The notes below the pieces were generated by a model. That model was not told the origin of the DNA, did no database searches, and was given only the letters and a program-made list of their open reading frames with translations. Of a DNA stretch of 64,000 bases, positions 1,885-11,350 are shown in pieces (within the stretch, counting starts at the first letter, position 1; every line of letters starts with the position of its first letter). Source of the stretch: Pilibacter termitis (lineage in GTDB: Bacteria; Bacillota; Bacilli; Lactobacillales; Streptococcaceae); NCBI RefSeq assembly GCF_900167335.1, contig NZ_FUXI01000004.1, positions 1 to 64,000 of the forward strand. Direction: 5' to 3'. Position numbers and translations under genes: made by a program.

Positions 1885-2946
1885 TTATCTATCAAACAAT
1901 TCATCAATCAATTTCTTAACAGTTGTAATCTCATTCACCCGATAAACGTTCGCACCTGCGAAAAGTAAGGCGTTTTCGGTATCGTGATTGACTGCCTTGA
2001 GCAGAAATTCTGAGATACAGTAAGGAATCGTTTTACGGTCGCAATGTTTGTAGCTCAAACAATTTCGGCATTTTTCGATTGGAATTGGCGTTTGTGTTTG
2101 AATGCGTTCGTAAAAACTGTTGTGAATCGCTCTTCCCGGCAATCCAACGGGTGACTTAATGATTTTTACGTCCTCTTCTTTTGCGTTAATATAACGCTCT
2201 TTAAAGTCGTCTGGAGCGTCACATTCTTCTGTTGCCACAAAACGAGTTGCCATTTGCACCCCGTCACACCCAAGTGAAAGGTAGTGCTGAATATCTTCCT
2301 GAGTAAAGACACCACCTGCAAAAATAACAGGTACTTTCTCTTTAAATGTTTCCGCATATTCTTTTACGATTTCAACGATTTTTTTGACTTCATTGTCCAT
2401 GTTTTCGATGGCACTTTGAATGTCATCTGCTTTAAAACCGAGATGTCCTCCGGCTTTTGGCCCTTCAATTACGACAAAGTCAGCAGTGCGGTTATAGCGT
2501 TTTGCCCAAGTTTTGAGAAGCACTTTAGCTCCTTTGGCACTTGAGACGATTGGTGCAATCTTTGTTTTGCTTCCTTCGACCAATTCGGGTAAATTTACAG
2601 GAAGACCTGCACCTGAAATGATAACATCTGCCCCGATTTCTACACAGCGTTGAACGATTTTTTCATATTGAAATTGAGCAACCATGATATTAAAGCCAAC
2701 AATTCCGCCTTTAGCGATACGTTTTGCTTCATCAAATTCCTCTTTGATTGCTTGCCAATTTGAACGAAGTGAATTTTTTTCAAAATCATCACGTCTGTAA
2801 CCGATTTGGGCGGTGGAAAGTATTCCAATGCCACCTTCTTTTGCAACAGTACCAGCAAGGCGAGAAAGAGAAATTCCAATCCCCATTCCTCCTTGAATAA
2901 GTGGTACTTTTGCTACTAAATCCTTGATAACTAACGGCTTAAACAT
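1885..2946 (-). CDS. FabK-like NAD(P)H-dependent flavin oxidoreductase
   Basis: This 353-residue TIM-barrel FMN enzyme belongs to the nitronate monooxygenase/FabK superfamily. Visible FMN-binding blocks are QGGMGIGIS near residue 20, GPKAGGHLG mid-protein and PVIFAGGVF further on. Unlike the 319-residue FabK in the same window, it has a C-terminal extension with four cysteines, C293-x2-C296-x5-C302-x7-C310. An SD-like AGGAGG sits just upstream of the ATG. The promoter on the minus strand (TTGACT 3074-3069, TATTAT 3051-3046, 17-bp spacer) has a FabT-type operator at its start site. It is therefore probably controlled with the fatty-acid genes. The substrate is not known from sequence. It could be a second enoyl reductase or a lipid- or nitronate-directed oxidase. 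Confidence 0.85.
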   Translation of the reverse strand: MFKPLVIKDLVAKVPLIQGGMGIGISLSRLAGTVAKEGGIGILSTAQIGYRRDDFEKNSLRSNWQAIKEEFDEAKRIAKGGIVGFNIMVAQFQYEKIVQRCVEIGADVIISGAGLPVNLPELVEGSKTKIAPIVSSAKGAKVLLKTWAKRYNRTADFVVIEGPKAGGHLGFKADDIQSAIENMDNEVKKIVEIVKEYAETFKEKVPVIFAGGVFTQEDIQHYLSLGCDGVQMATRFVATEECDAPDDFKERYINAKEEDVKIIKSPVGLPGRAIHNSFYERIQTQTPIPIEKCRNCLSYKHCDRKTIPYCISEFLLKAVNHDTENALLFAGANVYRVNEITTVKKLIDELFDR

Positions 2947-3023: not shown

Positions 3024-3039
3024 CTTTGATATTCAAACT
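3024..3039. promoter_or_regulatory. FabT-type operator at FabK-like gene promoter
   Basis: Read on the minus strand the site is AGTTTGAATATCAAAG. It shares 15 consecutive bases with the operator at 3226 in front of fabT. It begins about 7 bp beyond the minus-strand -10 (3051-3046), so repressor binding would cover the transcription start. FabT of streptococci and enterococci binds TTTGA-N-TCAAA palindromes. That FabT binds here is inferred. Confidence 0.75.
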
Positions 3040-3199: not shown

Positions 3200-3228
3200 T
3201 TGCACTTTGATTTATTTTCGTATATAGT
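3200..3228 (+). promoter_or_regulatory. fabT operon promoter
   Basis: TTGCAC (3200-3205) and TATAGT (3223-3228) are separated by 17 bp. The -10 overlaps the first of two FabT-type palindromes, consistent with autorepression. Confidence 0.85.
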
Positions 3229-3257
3229 TTGAATATCAAATCATTTGATGTTCAAAT
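3226..3257. promoter_or_regulatory. Tandem FabT operators
   Basis: Two adjacent palindromes, AGTTTGAATATCAAA (3226-3240) and ATTTGATGTTCAAAT (3243-3257), cover the -10 and the expected start site of fabT. They match the known FabT consensus of TTTGA and TCAAA half-sites. In relatives, FabT with acyl-ACP as corepressor binds such sites to shut down fatty-acid synthesis. Confidence 0.85.
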
Positions 3258-3292: not shown

Positions 3293-3733
3293 TTGACAGT
3301 AGATGTAGAAACAATCAATGAATATCTTGTAAGTATTTTTAATGATATCTTGACGATTGAGGAAACGGAGCTTCAAAAATCTCAGTTCTCAGACATTTCG
3401 ATTAAGGAAATGCACACCATTGAAGTGATTGGTATGTATCGCAAGAAAACAAGCAGCGAAGTGGCAAAAGAACTCATGGTGACAGTTGGTACGCTGACTG
3501 TTGCGGTGAATAATTTGGTGAAAAAAGGCTATGTCGAGCGTATTCGTTCAGAAGACGACAGACGTGTAGTCAAACTTGGGCTGACACATAAAGGCAAACT
3601 CGTTTACCGCGTTCATCAATCCTTTCATCGAAGCATGGTGAAAAATATTCTCGGAGATATGAATGAGGTGGAAAGTGATGCGTTGTTAAAGGCATTAAAA
3701 AATCTTCACGAATATCTTGAAAGGTTTAAATGA
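3293..3733 (+). CDS. fabT: FabT, MarR-family repressor of fatty-acid genes
   Basis: The protein has about 146 residues and a winged-helix MarR domain. The DNA-reading region [31 protein letters not shown] and the wing [14 protein letters not shown] are typical of FabT. I prefer the TTG at 3293 (8 nt after GGGAG) because it gives the usual FabT N-terminus; a GTG at 3278 is in frame. The stop overlaps the fabH start (ATGA at 3730-3733). It is the first gene of the operon and is preceded by its own operators. In lactic acid bacteria FabT senses long-chain acyl-ACP. Confidence 0.93.
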
Positions 3734-4707
3734 AAATGCAATTTGGAAAGATTACACAGGTGGCACATTACGTGCCAGAAAAAATTGTGACAAATGATGA
3801 CTTATCCACTATGTTAGAAACAAGTGACGAATGGATTTCTACTCGTACAGGTATAAGACGTCGTCATATCGCAGTAAACGAAAATACCTCGGATTTATGT
3901 ATAGAGGTTGCCAAAAAGTTGTTAGAAAAGGCGGAAATAGATCCTTCCGAGCTTGATTTCGTTCTTGTTGCCACCATGACTCCAGACTTTGCAACGCCTT
4001 CAACGGCAAGTTTGGTGCAAGGAGCGATTGGAGCAACTCGTGCGTTGGCTTTTGATATTTCAGCTGCCTGCTCAGGATTTGTCTATGCTCTTACTGTTGC
4101 AGAGAAATTTATTCTTTCTGGCAGTAAGAAAGGGATAGTCATTGGTGGAGAATGTCTAAGCAAAATCGTTGATTGGCAAGACAGAACGACTGCCGTCCTG
4201 TTCGGTGACGGTGCAGGTGGTGTATTGCTTGAGGCGAATGATACGCAGCATATCTTGGCTGAAAATCTAAGAAGTGACGGTGTGCGTGGCAGAAGTTTAA
4301 CGGCAATGTGCATTAAGCCACAACTAGAATTTTCCTCTGGTTTTCAAAATGAGCCATATTTGAAAATGGACGGACGTGACATTTTTGATTTTGCAGTGCG
4401 TGATGTCCCGCAAAACATTCTTGAAACGCTTGAAAGAGCAAAATTAAGTGTTGAAGAAATTGATACATTTCTCTTACATCAAGCAAATATGAGAATTATT
4501 GACAAAATGGCACGAAAAGTAAAAGCGGAAAGAAGTAAGTTTCCAACCAATATGGATAAATATGGAAATACTTCTGCTGCAAGTATTCCAATTCTCCTTT
4601 CAGAAGAAGTGGAAAAAGGCAGAGTCATTCTTGGCTCAAATCAAAAATTGGTGCTAACAGGATTTGGCGGTGGATTGACATGGGGTACTCTTGTTGTCAC
4701 AGTTTAA
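3730..4707 (+). CDS. fabH: Beta-ketoacyl-ACP synthase III
   Basis: The 325-residue KAS III performs the first condensation, acetyl-CoA (or a branched primer) with malonyl-ACP. The catalytic triad is visible: C114 in AACSGF, H250 in LLHQANMRI and N280 in KYGNTSAAS. The ATG at 3730 overlaps the fabT stop and lies 6 nt after AAGG; ATG 3736 is an alternative. In relatives acpP follows fabH closely, but here two unrelated small genes intervene. Confidence 0.97.
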
Positions 4708-4745
4708 TCCTTGCATATAAAAAATATAAGGAGGAAATTAAAAAA

Positions 4746-5210
4746 ATGCAGAAAACAGGAATAAAATTGGCAGTATTGTCAATGAGTATTTCATTGTTAT
4801 TACCTAACGTAATGAGTGTTGCAAAAGCGGAAGAAGTACTTGAACAGGCAATCTATTATGTAGATGAAGGGAATAGTCCAATTCCAGAACTAAAGGAGGA
4901 AGATTATGTAGTTTCCAAAAAAGCTCGAGGAGTTAGTTGGGTAAAACAAGCTATTAAAGCTTTATTAAAGTCCAAAGGGCTTGTTGTTGAACTAGTTGAA
5001 ATTGCAGCTGGTAAAACAGCAGCAAAAAAAGTGGCGGCTAGTTATGCAAAAATTACTAAAGCAGTAGAACCTTTGTTAAAATGGGCTGATGTTCCAGTAA
5101 ATGCCGTAAAAGATGCTGTAATTAGAGGTTTAGTAAATGGTGGGATGAAACGAAGTGAAGCGGTAGAAATCGCACACTACATTAAAACTATTTTGGATTG
5201 GCTGATATAG
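4746..5210 (+). CDS. Secreted cationic protein of unknown function in the fab operon
   Basis: The 154-residue protein has a clear Sec signal peptide: charged MQKTGIK, a hydrophobic core to about residue 24 and a VAKA cleavage site near residue 28. The start is set by a strong AGGAGG at 4731-4736; an in-frame ATG at 4680 lies inside fabH. The mature part begins with an acidic stretch (about residues 29-52). It then becomes lysine-rich and amphipathic, with WVKQAIKALLKSKG and AAGKTAAKKVAASYAKITKA, and ends in a helical segment finishing in DWLI. No cysteines, LPXTG motif or enzyme motif is visible. The layout recalls secreted bacteriocin-like or toxin-like proteins, but I do not recognise a defined family. 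Its position between fabH and acpP is unusual, and it abuts the next gene by one base. Confidence 0.8.
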   Translation: MQKTGIKLAVLSMSISLLLPNVMSVAKAEEVLEQAIYYVDEGNSPIPELKEEDYVVSKKARGVSWVKQAIKALLKSKGLVVELVEIAAGKTAAKKVAASYAKITKAVEPLLKWADVPVNAVKDAVIRGLVNGGMKRSEAVEIAHYIKTILDWLI

Positions 5211-5211
5211 T

Positions 5212-5535
5212 ATGGATGAAATGAGACAAAGAGCAATATCGGAAATTGCGGAATATCTAGGACATACACTAGAAAGTCCGATTTCTTTATCATTACTATT
5301 TGTTGAACTAGGTTTATCAGAAATTGATTTTGAACAAATCCATCAGATTATCAATGAAATAATCAATCCACACTATAATAACGGTGAGTATGAGTTGCAA
5401 GATTTTGTAATTCAAATTAATAACTATCTAATGACTAAGGAAATCACTTTGAGTGAAATGGTGATTGTCGGTATGTTAAAAGGGTTTAGTAAGAGTTGGT
5501 TTCCAGAACTCTATACTTTTGCTCATACACTATAA
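5212..5535 (+). CDS. Small acidic ACP-like or immunity-like protein
   Basis: This 107-residue protein starts one base after the preceding stop codon and has no good Shine-Dalgarno sequence, so translational coupling is likely. It has no signal peptide and is acidic and helical. Residues of roughly 9-72 line up with the acpP product encoded next to it: a shared I-x-E-x-L-G near the start, then F-x-EL, then D-x-x-QI, and a final block where LQDFVIQINNYL matches [12 protein letters not shown]. At the phosphopantetheine position the DSLDL of AcpP reads SEIDF, so the acceptor serine is a glutamate. About 34 extra residues follow. It could be a non-carrier ACP paralogue. Equally it could be a four-helix immunity protein for the secreted neighbour, since both folds are small helical bundles. 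Confidence 0.7.
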   Translation: MDEMRQRAISEIAEYLGHTLESPISLSLLFVELGLSEIDFEQIHQIINEIINPHYNNGEYELQDFVIQINNYLMTKEITLSEMVIVGMLKGFSKSWFPELYTFAHTL

Positions 5536-5556
5536 AATTATTTGGAGGAATTACAC

Positions 5557-5778
5557 ATGACTTTTGACAAAATTAAAGAAATTATCGTTGAAGAATTAGG
5601 TAAAGACGAAGATGAAGTAAAATTGGAAACTACTTTTGATGAATTAGAAGCTGATTCATTAGATTTGTTCCAAATCATCAACGAAATCGAAGATGAATTT
5701 GACGTGAAAATCGAATCTGAAGACGGTTTGAAAACTGTAAAAGATTTAGTTGACTACGTTGACGGGCAATTAAAATAA
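5557..5778 (+). CDS. acpP: Acyl carrier protein
   Basis: The 73-residue acidic protein has the phosphopantetheine site EADSLDL with Ser34. It carries growing acyl chains between the Fab enzymes in the cytoplasm. The ATG at 5557 is chosen because GGAGG sits at 5544-5548; an upstream in-frame TTG at 5542 is not needed. A terminator-like hairpin follows, so the fabK part of the operon may have its own supply of transcript or depend on readthrough. Confidence 0.97.
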
Positions 5779-10859: not shown

Positions 10860-11231
10860 AAGGTTGAAATGTGCGTTTAGAAGTTTGATACAATGAGGTA
10901 TGGCATTTATTTACTCGAAACGAAGTTTCGAGTGCCGTACCTCATAGTATCCAAACTTCTGCACATTGAAACTAGATTGGCTAAAAAGCGTAGAATTGCG
11001 TAAGGATTTTGATACAGTGAGCCGTGGCATTTATATACTTGAAACGAAGTTTCGAGTGCTGTACCTCATAGTATCCAAACTTCTGCACATTGAAACTAGA
11101 TTGGATAAAAAGCGTAGAATTGCGTAAGGATTTTGATACAGTGAGCCGTGGCATTTATATACTTGAAACGAAGTTTCAAGTGCCACTGCGAACAGTATCC
11201 AAAATCCTGCAATTCGTAACTAGACTGGCTA
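10860..11231 (+). repeat. Three tandem hairpin elements (array A)
   Basis: Three units of about 120-124 bp (about 10860-10983, 10984-11107, 11108-11231) each form a long imperfect hairpin capped by a GAAAC-GAA-GTTTC stem-loop. Units end in the ACTAGA(C/T)TGG(C/A)T block equivalent to CTAGACAAAG in other copies. The middle unit has the left arm of unit 3 and the right arm of unit 1, so its arms do not match. This is what a 124-bp tandem duplication between two hairpin loops would leave. Confidence 0.9.
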
Positions 11232-11350
11232 AAAAGCGTAGCTTTTCAGCGTAGCGAATACTTTTGCGTAGGAGGAGTTCAAGTCTACGAAGTAGACCGA
11301 GACGAAGTCTCGCTTTGAGCCATGCTCAAAGTGAACCCCGAGAAGCACTT
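11232..11350 (+). repeat. Truncated fourth unit and three small hairpins
   Basis: AAAAGCGTAGC begins a fourth unit that breaks off. Then come three short perfect hairpins in a row: GTCTACGAAGTAGAC, GAGACGAAGTCTC and CTTTGAGCCATGCTCAAAG. The first two share a CGAAG-like loop core. No coding potential is seen. The rest of the gap to about 11460 is AT-rich and featureless. Confidence 0.6.

Follow-up and report, generated by a model that had tools for sequence, protein, structure and literature searches.

In the fatty-acid operon of Pilibacter termitis, two adjacent genes between fabH and acpP, here called ORF1 and ORF2, quite probably constitute a cassette for a bacteriocin and its immunity protein, which entered the operon at the start of acpP and now uses the acpP leader. 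The window, that is, the whole stretch of DNA analyzed, comprises the first 64,000 nucleotides of contig NZ_FUXI01000004.1. Our computations show that the pairing of the two genes is conserved, that they diverge congruently, that they are spread on plasmids and at scattered chromosomal sites, that ORF2 is retained without ORF1, and that the pair is placed within the operon. From this pattern we infer that ORF1 is toxic and that ORF2 confers immunity. The features discussed below are as follows.

3228..3256, plus strand: TTTGANNNTCAAA, a FabT-like palindrome, in two exact copies upstream of fabT; another copy lies at 3025-3037
3293..3733, plus strand: fabT, with which the transcription unit presumably begins, named by conserved gene order; we take its product to belong to the FabT family
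3730..4707, plus strand: fabH, the upstream neighbor of ORF1
4708..4745, plus strand: fabH-ORF1 gap, similar to the fabH-acpP leader of congener G001
4746..5210, plus strand: ORF1, 154 aa, proposed Sec-exported bacteriocin precursor (signal peptide about 1-28, variable stretch about 29-61, six-helix domain about 62-153)
5212..5535, plus strand: ORF2, 107 aa, all-helical, proposed cognate cytoplasmic immunity protein
5536..5556, plus strand: ORF2-acpP gap, containing the current ribosome-binding site of acpP, GGAGGAATTA
5557..5778, plus strand: acpP, the downstream neighbor of ORF2

The genes fabH, ORF1, ORF2, and acpP lie on the same strand with intergenic spacings of 38, 1, and 21 bases, and a reading of the sequence places ribosome-binding sites before both ORF1 and ORF2. 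FabH was found in 53 of the 58 genomes searched, and 30 loci, from 30 of those 53 genomes, were read. The stop-to-start distance between fabH and acpP is 849 bp here versus 26-251 bp (median 60) in all 29 other loci, confirming the initial annotation's statement that relatives have little or nothing at this position. With the site empty in 29 of 29 other fabH loci, the pair cannot be universally conserved housekeeping genes of the operon.

The only congener in the survey, G001, has a fabH-acpP gap of 41 bp and lacks the pair. Its leader, GTTGCATATATAAAAATTTATAGGAGGAAGTTGAA, resembles the sequence that precedes ORF1 here, CCTTGCATATAAAAAATATAAGGAGGAAATTAAAAAA. Because a G001-like leader is kept in front of ORF1, we place the insertion of the pair at the start of acpP and conclude that ORF1 uses the former ribosome-binding site of acpP. 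The simplest reading is thus that ORF1 inherited this site on insertion and that acpP now appears to rely on a new one, GGAGGAATTA. The motif GGAGGAA occurs in both the fabH-ORF1 and the ORF2-acpP gaps; it is expected of any strong ribosome-binding site and therefore says little about the mechanism of insertion.

The proposal that the pair was acquired is upheld by its absence from the congener and 28 other loci, together with the clean insertion at the start of acpP. The codon argument originally offered for acquisition fared less well. A richness in AGA codons had been noted, and we rejected it as a sign of acquisition on the arginine codon counts: AGA or AGG accounts for one of three arginine codons in ORF1, two of two in ORF2, and 8 of 16 in fabH. 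As for AT-ending codons, GC3 is somewhat low in ORF1 (0.219) and ORF2 (0.250) compared with 0.27-0.34 in the fab and acc genes of this window except fabT (0.388), but rplK also has a low value, 0.232. As codon usage sets the pair apart by no more than a slightly low GC3, the case for acquisition rests on distribution and site, not on composition.

Elsewhere in the operon, between fabZ and accC (window positions 10884-11241), a unit of ~124 bp is repeated 2.9 times in tandem with an 89% match. It gave 54 matches at E ≤ 0.001, three of them the array itself, on many contigs of the same genome at 70-100% identity, and is a dispersed repeat family.

We also considered how the pair might be transcribed. 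The exact palindrome TTTGANNNTCAAA, which we presume to be the FabT box, occurs three times in the 64-kb window (positions 3025, 3228, and 3244), always upstream of fabT, against 0.63 expected; 2 of 100 shuffles matched this number. When one mismatch was allowed, the number of occurrences equaled that expected by chance. Between fabH and acpP, we found no exact copy of the palindrome and no convincing promoter or terminator, the counts being near those of shuffled sequence. Cotranscription of ORF1 and ORF2 with fabT, fabH, and acpP, and hence putative control by FabT, is plausible from this arrangement. A second enoyl-reductase-like gene, presumably of the FabK/nitronate monooxygenase type, lies upstream of fabT on the minus strand (window positions 1885-2946), with the FabT-like palindrome at 3025 before it.

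The N terminus of ORF1 reads, by inspection only, as a Sec-type signal peptide (MQKTGIK / LAVLSMSISLLLP / AKA-EE). The C-terminal domain carries a net charge of +7 over 93 residues, and the acidic stretch before it, to about residue 61, carries −5. In an AlphaFold model based on a 14-row alignment, residues 1-42 have low confidence and six helices occupy residues 63-153; block averages of pLDDT are 82-94 from residue 71 onward, that is, over the conserved C-terminal domain. The mean hydrophobic moment of the six predicted helices is 0.445 versus a shuffle mean of 0.256, a value reached by 2 of 2000 shuffles. The description of ORF1 as a signal-peptide protein with amphipathic helices is thus borne out by inspection and by the shuffles. 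Across 14 family members, the stretch preceding the domain has a net charge of −1 to −5 in 12 and of +2 in the other two, and the net charge of the C-terminal domain ranges from −1 to +11, so that the domain is not cationic in all of them. Because of this variation, the acidic stretch followed by a cationic domain is to be regarded as a tendency only. An arginine near position 61 is common, not universal. ORF1 itself is cysteine-free, and 12 of the 14 members have no cysteine in the domain, the remaining two having one each. Fifteen residues are invariant across the family, and all of them are present in this ORF1.

Two groups of described bacteriocins offer points of comparison. According to a review, dysgalacticin is a plasmid-encoded, Sec-exported protein of 220 aa with an adjacent immunity gene, dysI, whose product is membrane-associated; its target is a sugar PTS, and streptococcin A-M57 is likewise a plasmid-encoded bacteriocin (PMC8308785). 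By these descriptions, ORF1-ORF2 resembles dysgalacticin in the plasmid carriage of its relatives, in predicted Sec export, and in the adjacent putative immunity gene; the same descriptions set it apart, as ORF1 is smaller and ORF2 is predicted to be soluble, whereas DysI is membrane-associated. EntV (enterocin O16, EF1097) of Enterococcus faecalis is processed by a protease that removes the pro-half and requires a disulfide between two cysteines; its external faces are negative in the N-terminal and positive in the C-terminal part, and the C-terminal half is the active part (PMC9562342). ORF1 is like EntV in the size of the pre-pro-protein, its signal peptide, its predicted all-helical structure, and its negative N-terminal and positive C-terminal parts, but it lacks the cysteine pair and has no PDB match by profile. 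As the required cysteines are missing, ORF1 is not of the EntV type. The YGNGV motif, described for class IIa (pediocin-like) bacteriocins near the mature N terminus, is also absent from ORF1.

Searches of the window proteins against Pfam, NCBIfam, PHROGs, PADLOC, and PDB sequences gave no usable match; no Pfam or NCBIfam family covers either ORF, and the sequence searches matched no characterized bacteriocin or immunity protein. Weak matches to AbiJ_NTD3 (E 0.022) and, for ORF2, to phrog_18877 (function unassigned, E 0.0021), as well as matches of ribosomal protein S17 models to 2 of 17 ORF2 relatives (E 0.0005), were treated as chance, because they were far below curated cutoffs, where these were shown, or concerned unrelated families. 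Profile searches against the PDB gave no match that we trusted; the best were those of the distant ORF1 profile to a chain H12 (E 7e-4, 51 of 109 chain residues) and of ORF2 to hemoglobin (E 0.008). Foldseek comparison of the ORF1 and ORF2 models with the PDB returned no match with E ≤ 0.001; EntV and class IIa immunity proteins were not noticed among the matches listed, which does not imply their exclusion. Open-access literature searches retrieved no paper on the ORF1/ORF2 family or on a bacteriocin in a fab operon. The family is widespread and apparently undescribed.

ORF2 has a net charge of −11 and a pI of 4.5, and its predicted structure consists of six helices with a mean pLDDT of 92.7. 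The phosphopantetheine site of acyl carrier proteins (ACPs) is marked by a DSL motif. ORF2 has no such motif, and hhalign gave a probability of 0.7% in a profile comparison with nine ACPs; the suggestion that it is an ACP-like partner was therefore rejected.

The relatives of the pair are found in many genera, and for this reason the two frames are not chance ORFs. By tblastn, ORF1 was found on 15 of 72,556 plasmid records: 12 from Streptococcus suis (4285 bp in every row listed) and one each from Clostridioides difficile, Enterococcus cecorum, and Staphylococcus epidermidis. In all four plasmids read (one of the 12 from S. suis and the other three), a gene of 306-363 nt directly follows ORF1. 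The gene table of the 4285-bp S. suis plasmid holds only mob, rep, and the ORF1-ORF2 pair; in the S. epidermidis plasmid, a frame change splits ORF1. No phage record searched has ORF1.

A single-query ORF1 scan of genome contigs gave no match, and a scan with a six-row ORF1 alignment gave 16 chromosomal or metagenome-assembled genome (MAG) loci. These belong to Clostridium sp. E02 (two), Galliscardovia ingluviei, an actinobacterium (two), Atopobacter, Leuconostoc (two), three Staphylococcus species (four), and MAGs assigned to Paenibacillaceae, Peptococcaceae (two), Mediterraneibacter, and Ca. Harrysmithimonas. The ORF1 profile A1 matches 13 of 395 genomes of the order to which P. termitis belongs, several of them weakly, and the single ORF1 protein matches 2 of 146 relatives, its own genome included. 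All 16 of these loci carry a match to the ORF2 profile immediately after ORF1 or what remains of it; 15 of them contributed to that profile, and L030, L001, and L003 are independent of it. Flanking genes vary from locus to locus, and the sites are unrelated; the neighbors that precede the pairs include what are presumably uvrA, serS, and YitT-type genes. This distribution is that of a mobile cassette.

Two loci show further arrangements. At L029 (4597-5103), a second, distant ORF1-like secreted gene follows an intact pair (profile E 5e-4), which suggests stacked bacteriocin genes. At L086 (98-1866), in a genome of the host's family, an ORF2 homologue follows two other genes, one for a secreted protein of 334 aa and one of 98 aa with hydrophobic stretches. 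None of the L086 genes reached the cutoff of any Pfam family, and the locus possibly represents another bacteriocin with stacked immunity genes.

The pairing was assessed class-wide in 398 genomes: 17 of them contain the 20 places that match the ORF2 profile, and 21 contain the 25 that match the ORF1 profile. Without the place in the window itself, 19 ORF2 places remain; five have an intact ORF1 before them, 11 have an intact ORF2 with ORF1 broken or absent, and three are unscorable. A broken ORF1 precedes an intact ORF2 at seven further loci (L004, L010, L012, L014, L033, L034, and L035), and L086 has ORF2 without ORF1. The nonredundant tally of close relatives is 19 intact pairs (in one of which, L030, ORF2 is truncated by the end of the sequence stretch), 19 intact ORF2 genes with ORF1 broken or missing, and no intact ORF1 without ORF2.

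Working from locus tables, we classed each gene by hand as intact, broken, or absent, after which duplicates, i.e. the same locus or an identical ORF2, were removed (L005, L007, L008, L091, L095, L110-L115, L124, L130, L132, and L133). The tally drops L105 (contig edge), L102 (stops in ORF2), L106 and L011/L125 (both genes broken), L116/L131 (ORF1 broken, ORF2 absent), and L087 (weak partial ORF2 match). Distant ORF1 types stand outside it (L002, L006, L009, L013, L016, L019, and those of L117-L129 not mentioned above). The single genus g97 supplies many of the orphan ORF2s, one of its genomes sharing an identical ORF2 with S. simiae, and the number of independent events is therefore lower than 19.

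Two orphan ORF2s, L010 and L035, compare with a dN/dS of 0.16, a value that fits selection on ORF2 after the loss of ORF1, provided that the loss predates their split. In L025, ORF2 is a fused tandem duplicate. Persisting without ORF1 is how an immunity gene would behave, and this is the main reason for our confidence in the bacteriocin-immunity reading. Together, the conserved pairing, the orphan ORF2s, and plasmid carriage support the toxin/immunity form that had been proposed from the layout.

Across 15 pairs, sequence identity averages 0.488 for the ORF1 C-terminal domain and 0.298 for ORF2, and the two sets of values are correlated, with a Mantel r of 0.85 that none of 9999 permutations reached. 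Co-inheritance alone would also give such a correlation, so it shows that the genes travel jointly and not that their products are in contact. In a genome of another family of the order (G416, L088:7784-10148), a lone fabH stands two genes ahead of an orphan ORF2. We considered this single case as another association with fab genes but set it aside as a likely coincidence, the gene not being in the fab operon.

In the class-wide search, other families of the class yielded more distant secreted proteins of the ORF1 type, with E values of about 1e-7 to 1e-12, and different small genes follow most of them. The close and distant ORF1 profiles match each other with 99.4% probability (E 3e-21). The distant types at L013, L019, and L016 lie near a helix-turn-helix gene and have no recognizable partner; the gene at L013 is intact and full-length with a signal-like start, and L019 is a profile match only. 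At L126, the partner is short and unrelated.

Pfam reported DUF1878, below its cutoff (E about 0.1), for 2 of 10 distant partners scanned. We built a profile, A9, from 8 of the 13 distant partners seen, with rows chosen by hand; L122, L123, L126, L128, and L006 were excluded because they differed in length or looked dissimilar on inspection. The corresponding profile of distant ORF1 proteins, A10, comprises 10 sequences and leaves out L125, L127, and L129 (broken, partial, or weak). A9 matched both DUF1878 (94.3%, 101 columns) and the ORF2 family (94.4%, 87 columns), and its controls (reversed and 60 column-shuffled profiles) reached at most 1.3%. Compared directly, ORF2 and DUF1878 gave 0.6%, below the shuffle maximum of 3.9%, and a direct sequence relation was rejected. 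Because the direct comparison fails, what connects ORF2 to DUF1878 is the bridge profile A9, together with context. None of 17 ORF2 family members matched PF08963 at E ≤ 1, and DUF1878 had no match in the Pilibacter genome itself.

The solved member of DUF1878 is Bacillus subtilis YhaI (PDB entry 1sed). This entry is the best fold match of ORF2, with a Foldseek TM of 0.53 and an E of 0.8, which is not significant alone; VIA-align gave a Z of 7.3 over 94 residues (rmsd 3.6), a Z that, according to the tool, can be common. Independently, we fetched DUF1878 places irrespective of their neighbors: an ORF1-like gene lies directly upstream in 3 of 19 and in none of the remaining 16. The three are L079 and L080, from one genus and 96% identical, and L081, in which the ORF1-like gene is a remnant. 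The upstream protein of L079/L080 matched the distant ORF1 profile with 92.7% and the close one with 77.8%. ORF2 is like YhaI in size, has it as its best fold match, and may be linked to it through the distant partners, but it differs in lacking a PF08963 match, and most DUF1878 places (16 of 19) have no ORF1-like neighbor. Some DUF1878 genes adjoin what we take to be an hpr/scoC-like gene, and their products may serve another role.

A wider proposal, which we hold tentatively and consider rather doubtful as a whole, is that of an undescribed superfamily of Sec-exported helical bacteriocins in Bacillota and Galliscardovia, with immunity proteins of the DUF1878 fold and, in this genome, with capture of the acpP leader under FabT. 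On this view, DUF1878 proteins would act, or would once have acted, in immunity to bacteriocins, and FabT, the fatty-acid sensor, would couple production of the bacteriocin to the synthesis of membrane lipids.

As for mechanism, the sequence of ORF1 suggests that it would be exported by Sec and cut by signal peptidase after Ala-28. A second cut near Arg-61, proposed because an acidic stretch precedes the cationic domain, might free a compact cationic six-helix domain of ~93 residues. By analogy with EntV and dysgalacticin, this domain would act on the membrane of related Gram-positive bacteria and kill them, whether by inserting into it directly or, as dysgalacticin does, by way of a receptor that is a membrane protein. 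ORF2 would remain in the cytoplasm and shield the producer, probably by binding the toxin or the receptor from inside.

Other readings of the pair must be weighed against this one. A secreted, helical ORF1 with an intracellular partner could also describe a colonization, adhesion, or signaling protein and its cytoplasmic regulator or chaperone. We regard this as improbable, as purifying selection on ORF2 after ORF1 loss, the tandem duplication of ORF2, and small plasmids for which no further cargo is listed fit immunity better. Still less likely is a domesticated pair in fatty-acid or envelope homeostasis, co-regulated by FabT, for example with ORF1 as a lipid-binding secreted protein. Its position between fabH and acpP behind the former acpP leader, and the FabT-like boxes upstream, would suit such a role, but relatives occupy unrelated sites, plasmids included, and ORF2 is not ACP-like; moreover, the 15 family-invariant residues are all kept here, so there is no sign of an altered role.

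The two-gene layout and the small plasmids would also be expected of an addiction (toxin-antitoxin) module of the plasmid type, the main job of which is to retain the DNA that carries it. The signal peptide of ORF1, the second place of ORF2, and the frequency of orphan ORF2s argue against it, and we give it very little weight. The bacteriocin-immunity reading, in turn, agrees with the usual traits of such modules, namely a small secreted protein followed by a small partner gene and kept with it as a pair. Counting against it are the searches that matched neither a characterized bacteriocin or immunity protein by sequence nor a PDB structure by Foldseek at E ≤ 0.001, the members whose C-terminal domain is not cationic, and the distant ORF1-like loci with no recognizable partner or an unrelated one. 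In our view, ORF1 and ORF2 form a genuine mobile module of two genes whose evolutionary signature is that of a bacteriocin and its immunity protein, precisely inserted in a core lipid operon in one lineage.

If the bacteriocin-immunity reading is true, it would give a function to two groups that are without one, the ORF1 family and ORF2, possibly with DUF1878. Bacillota would be a source of many testable antibacterial proteins that are unmodified and easily expressed. Earlier exposure to the toxin could be read from the orphan ORF2s, many of which belong to one genus, and P. termitis would provide a natural case of an interbacterial weapon wired into a fatty-acid synthesis operon through a precise insertion at a ribosome-binding site.
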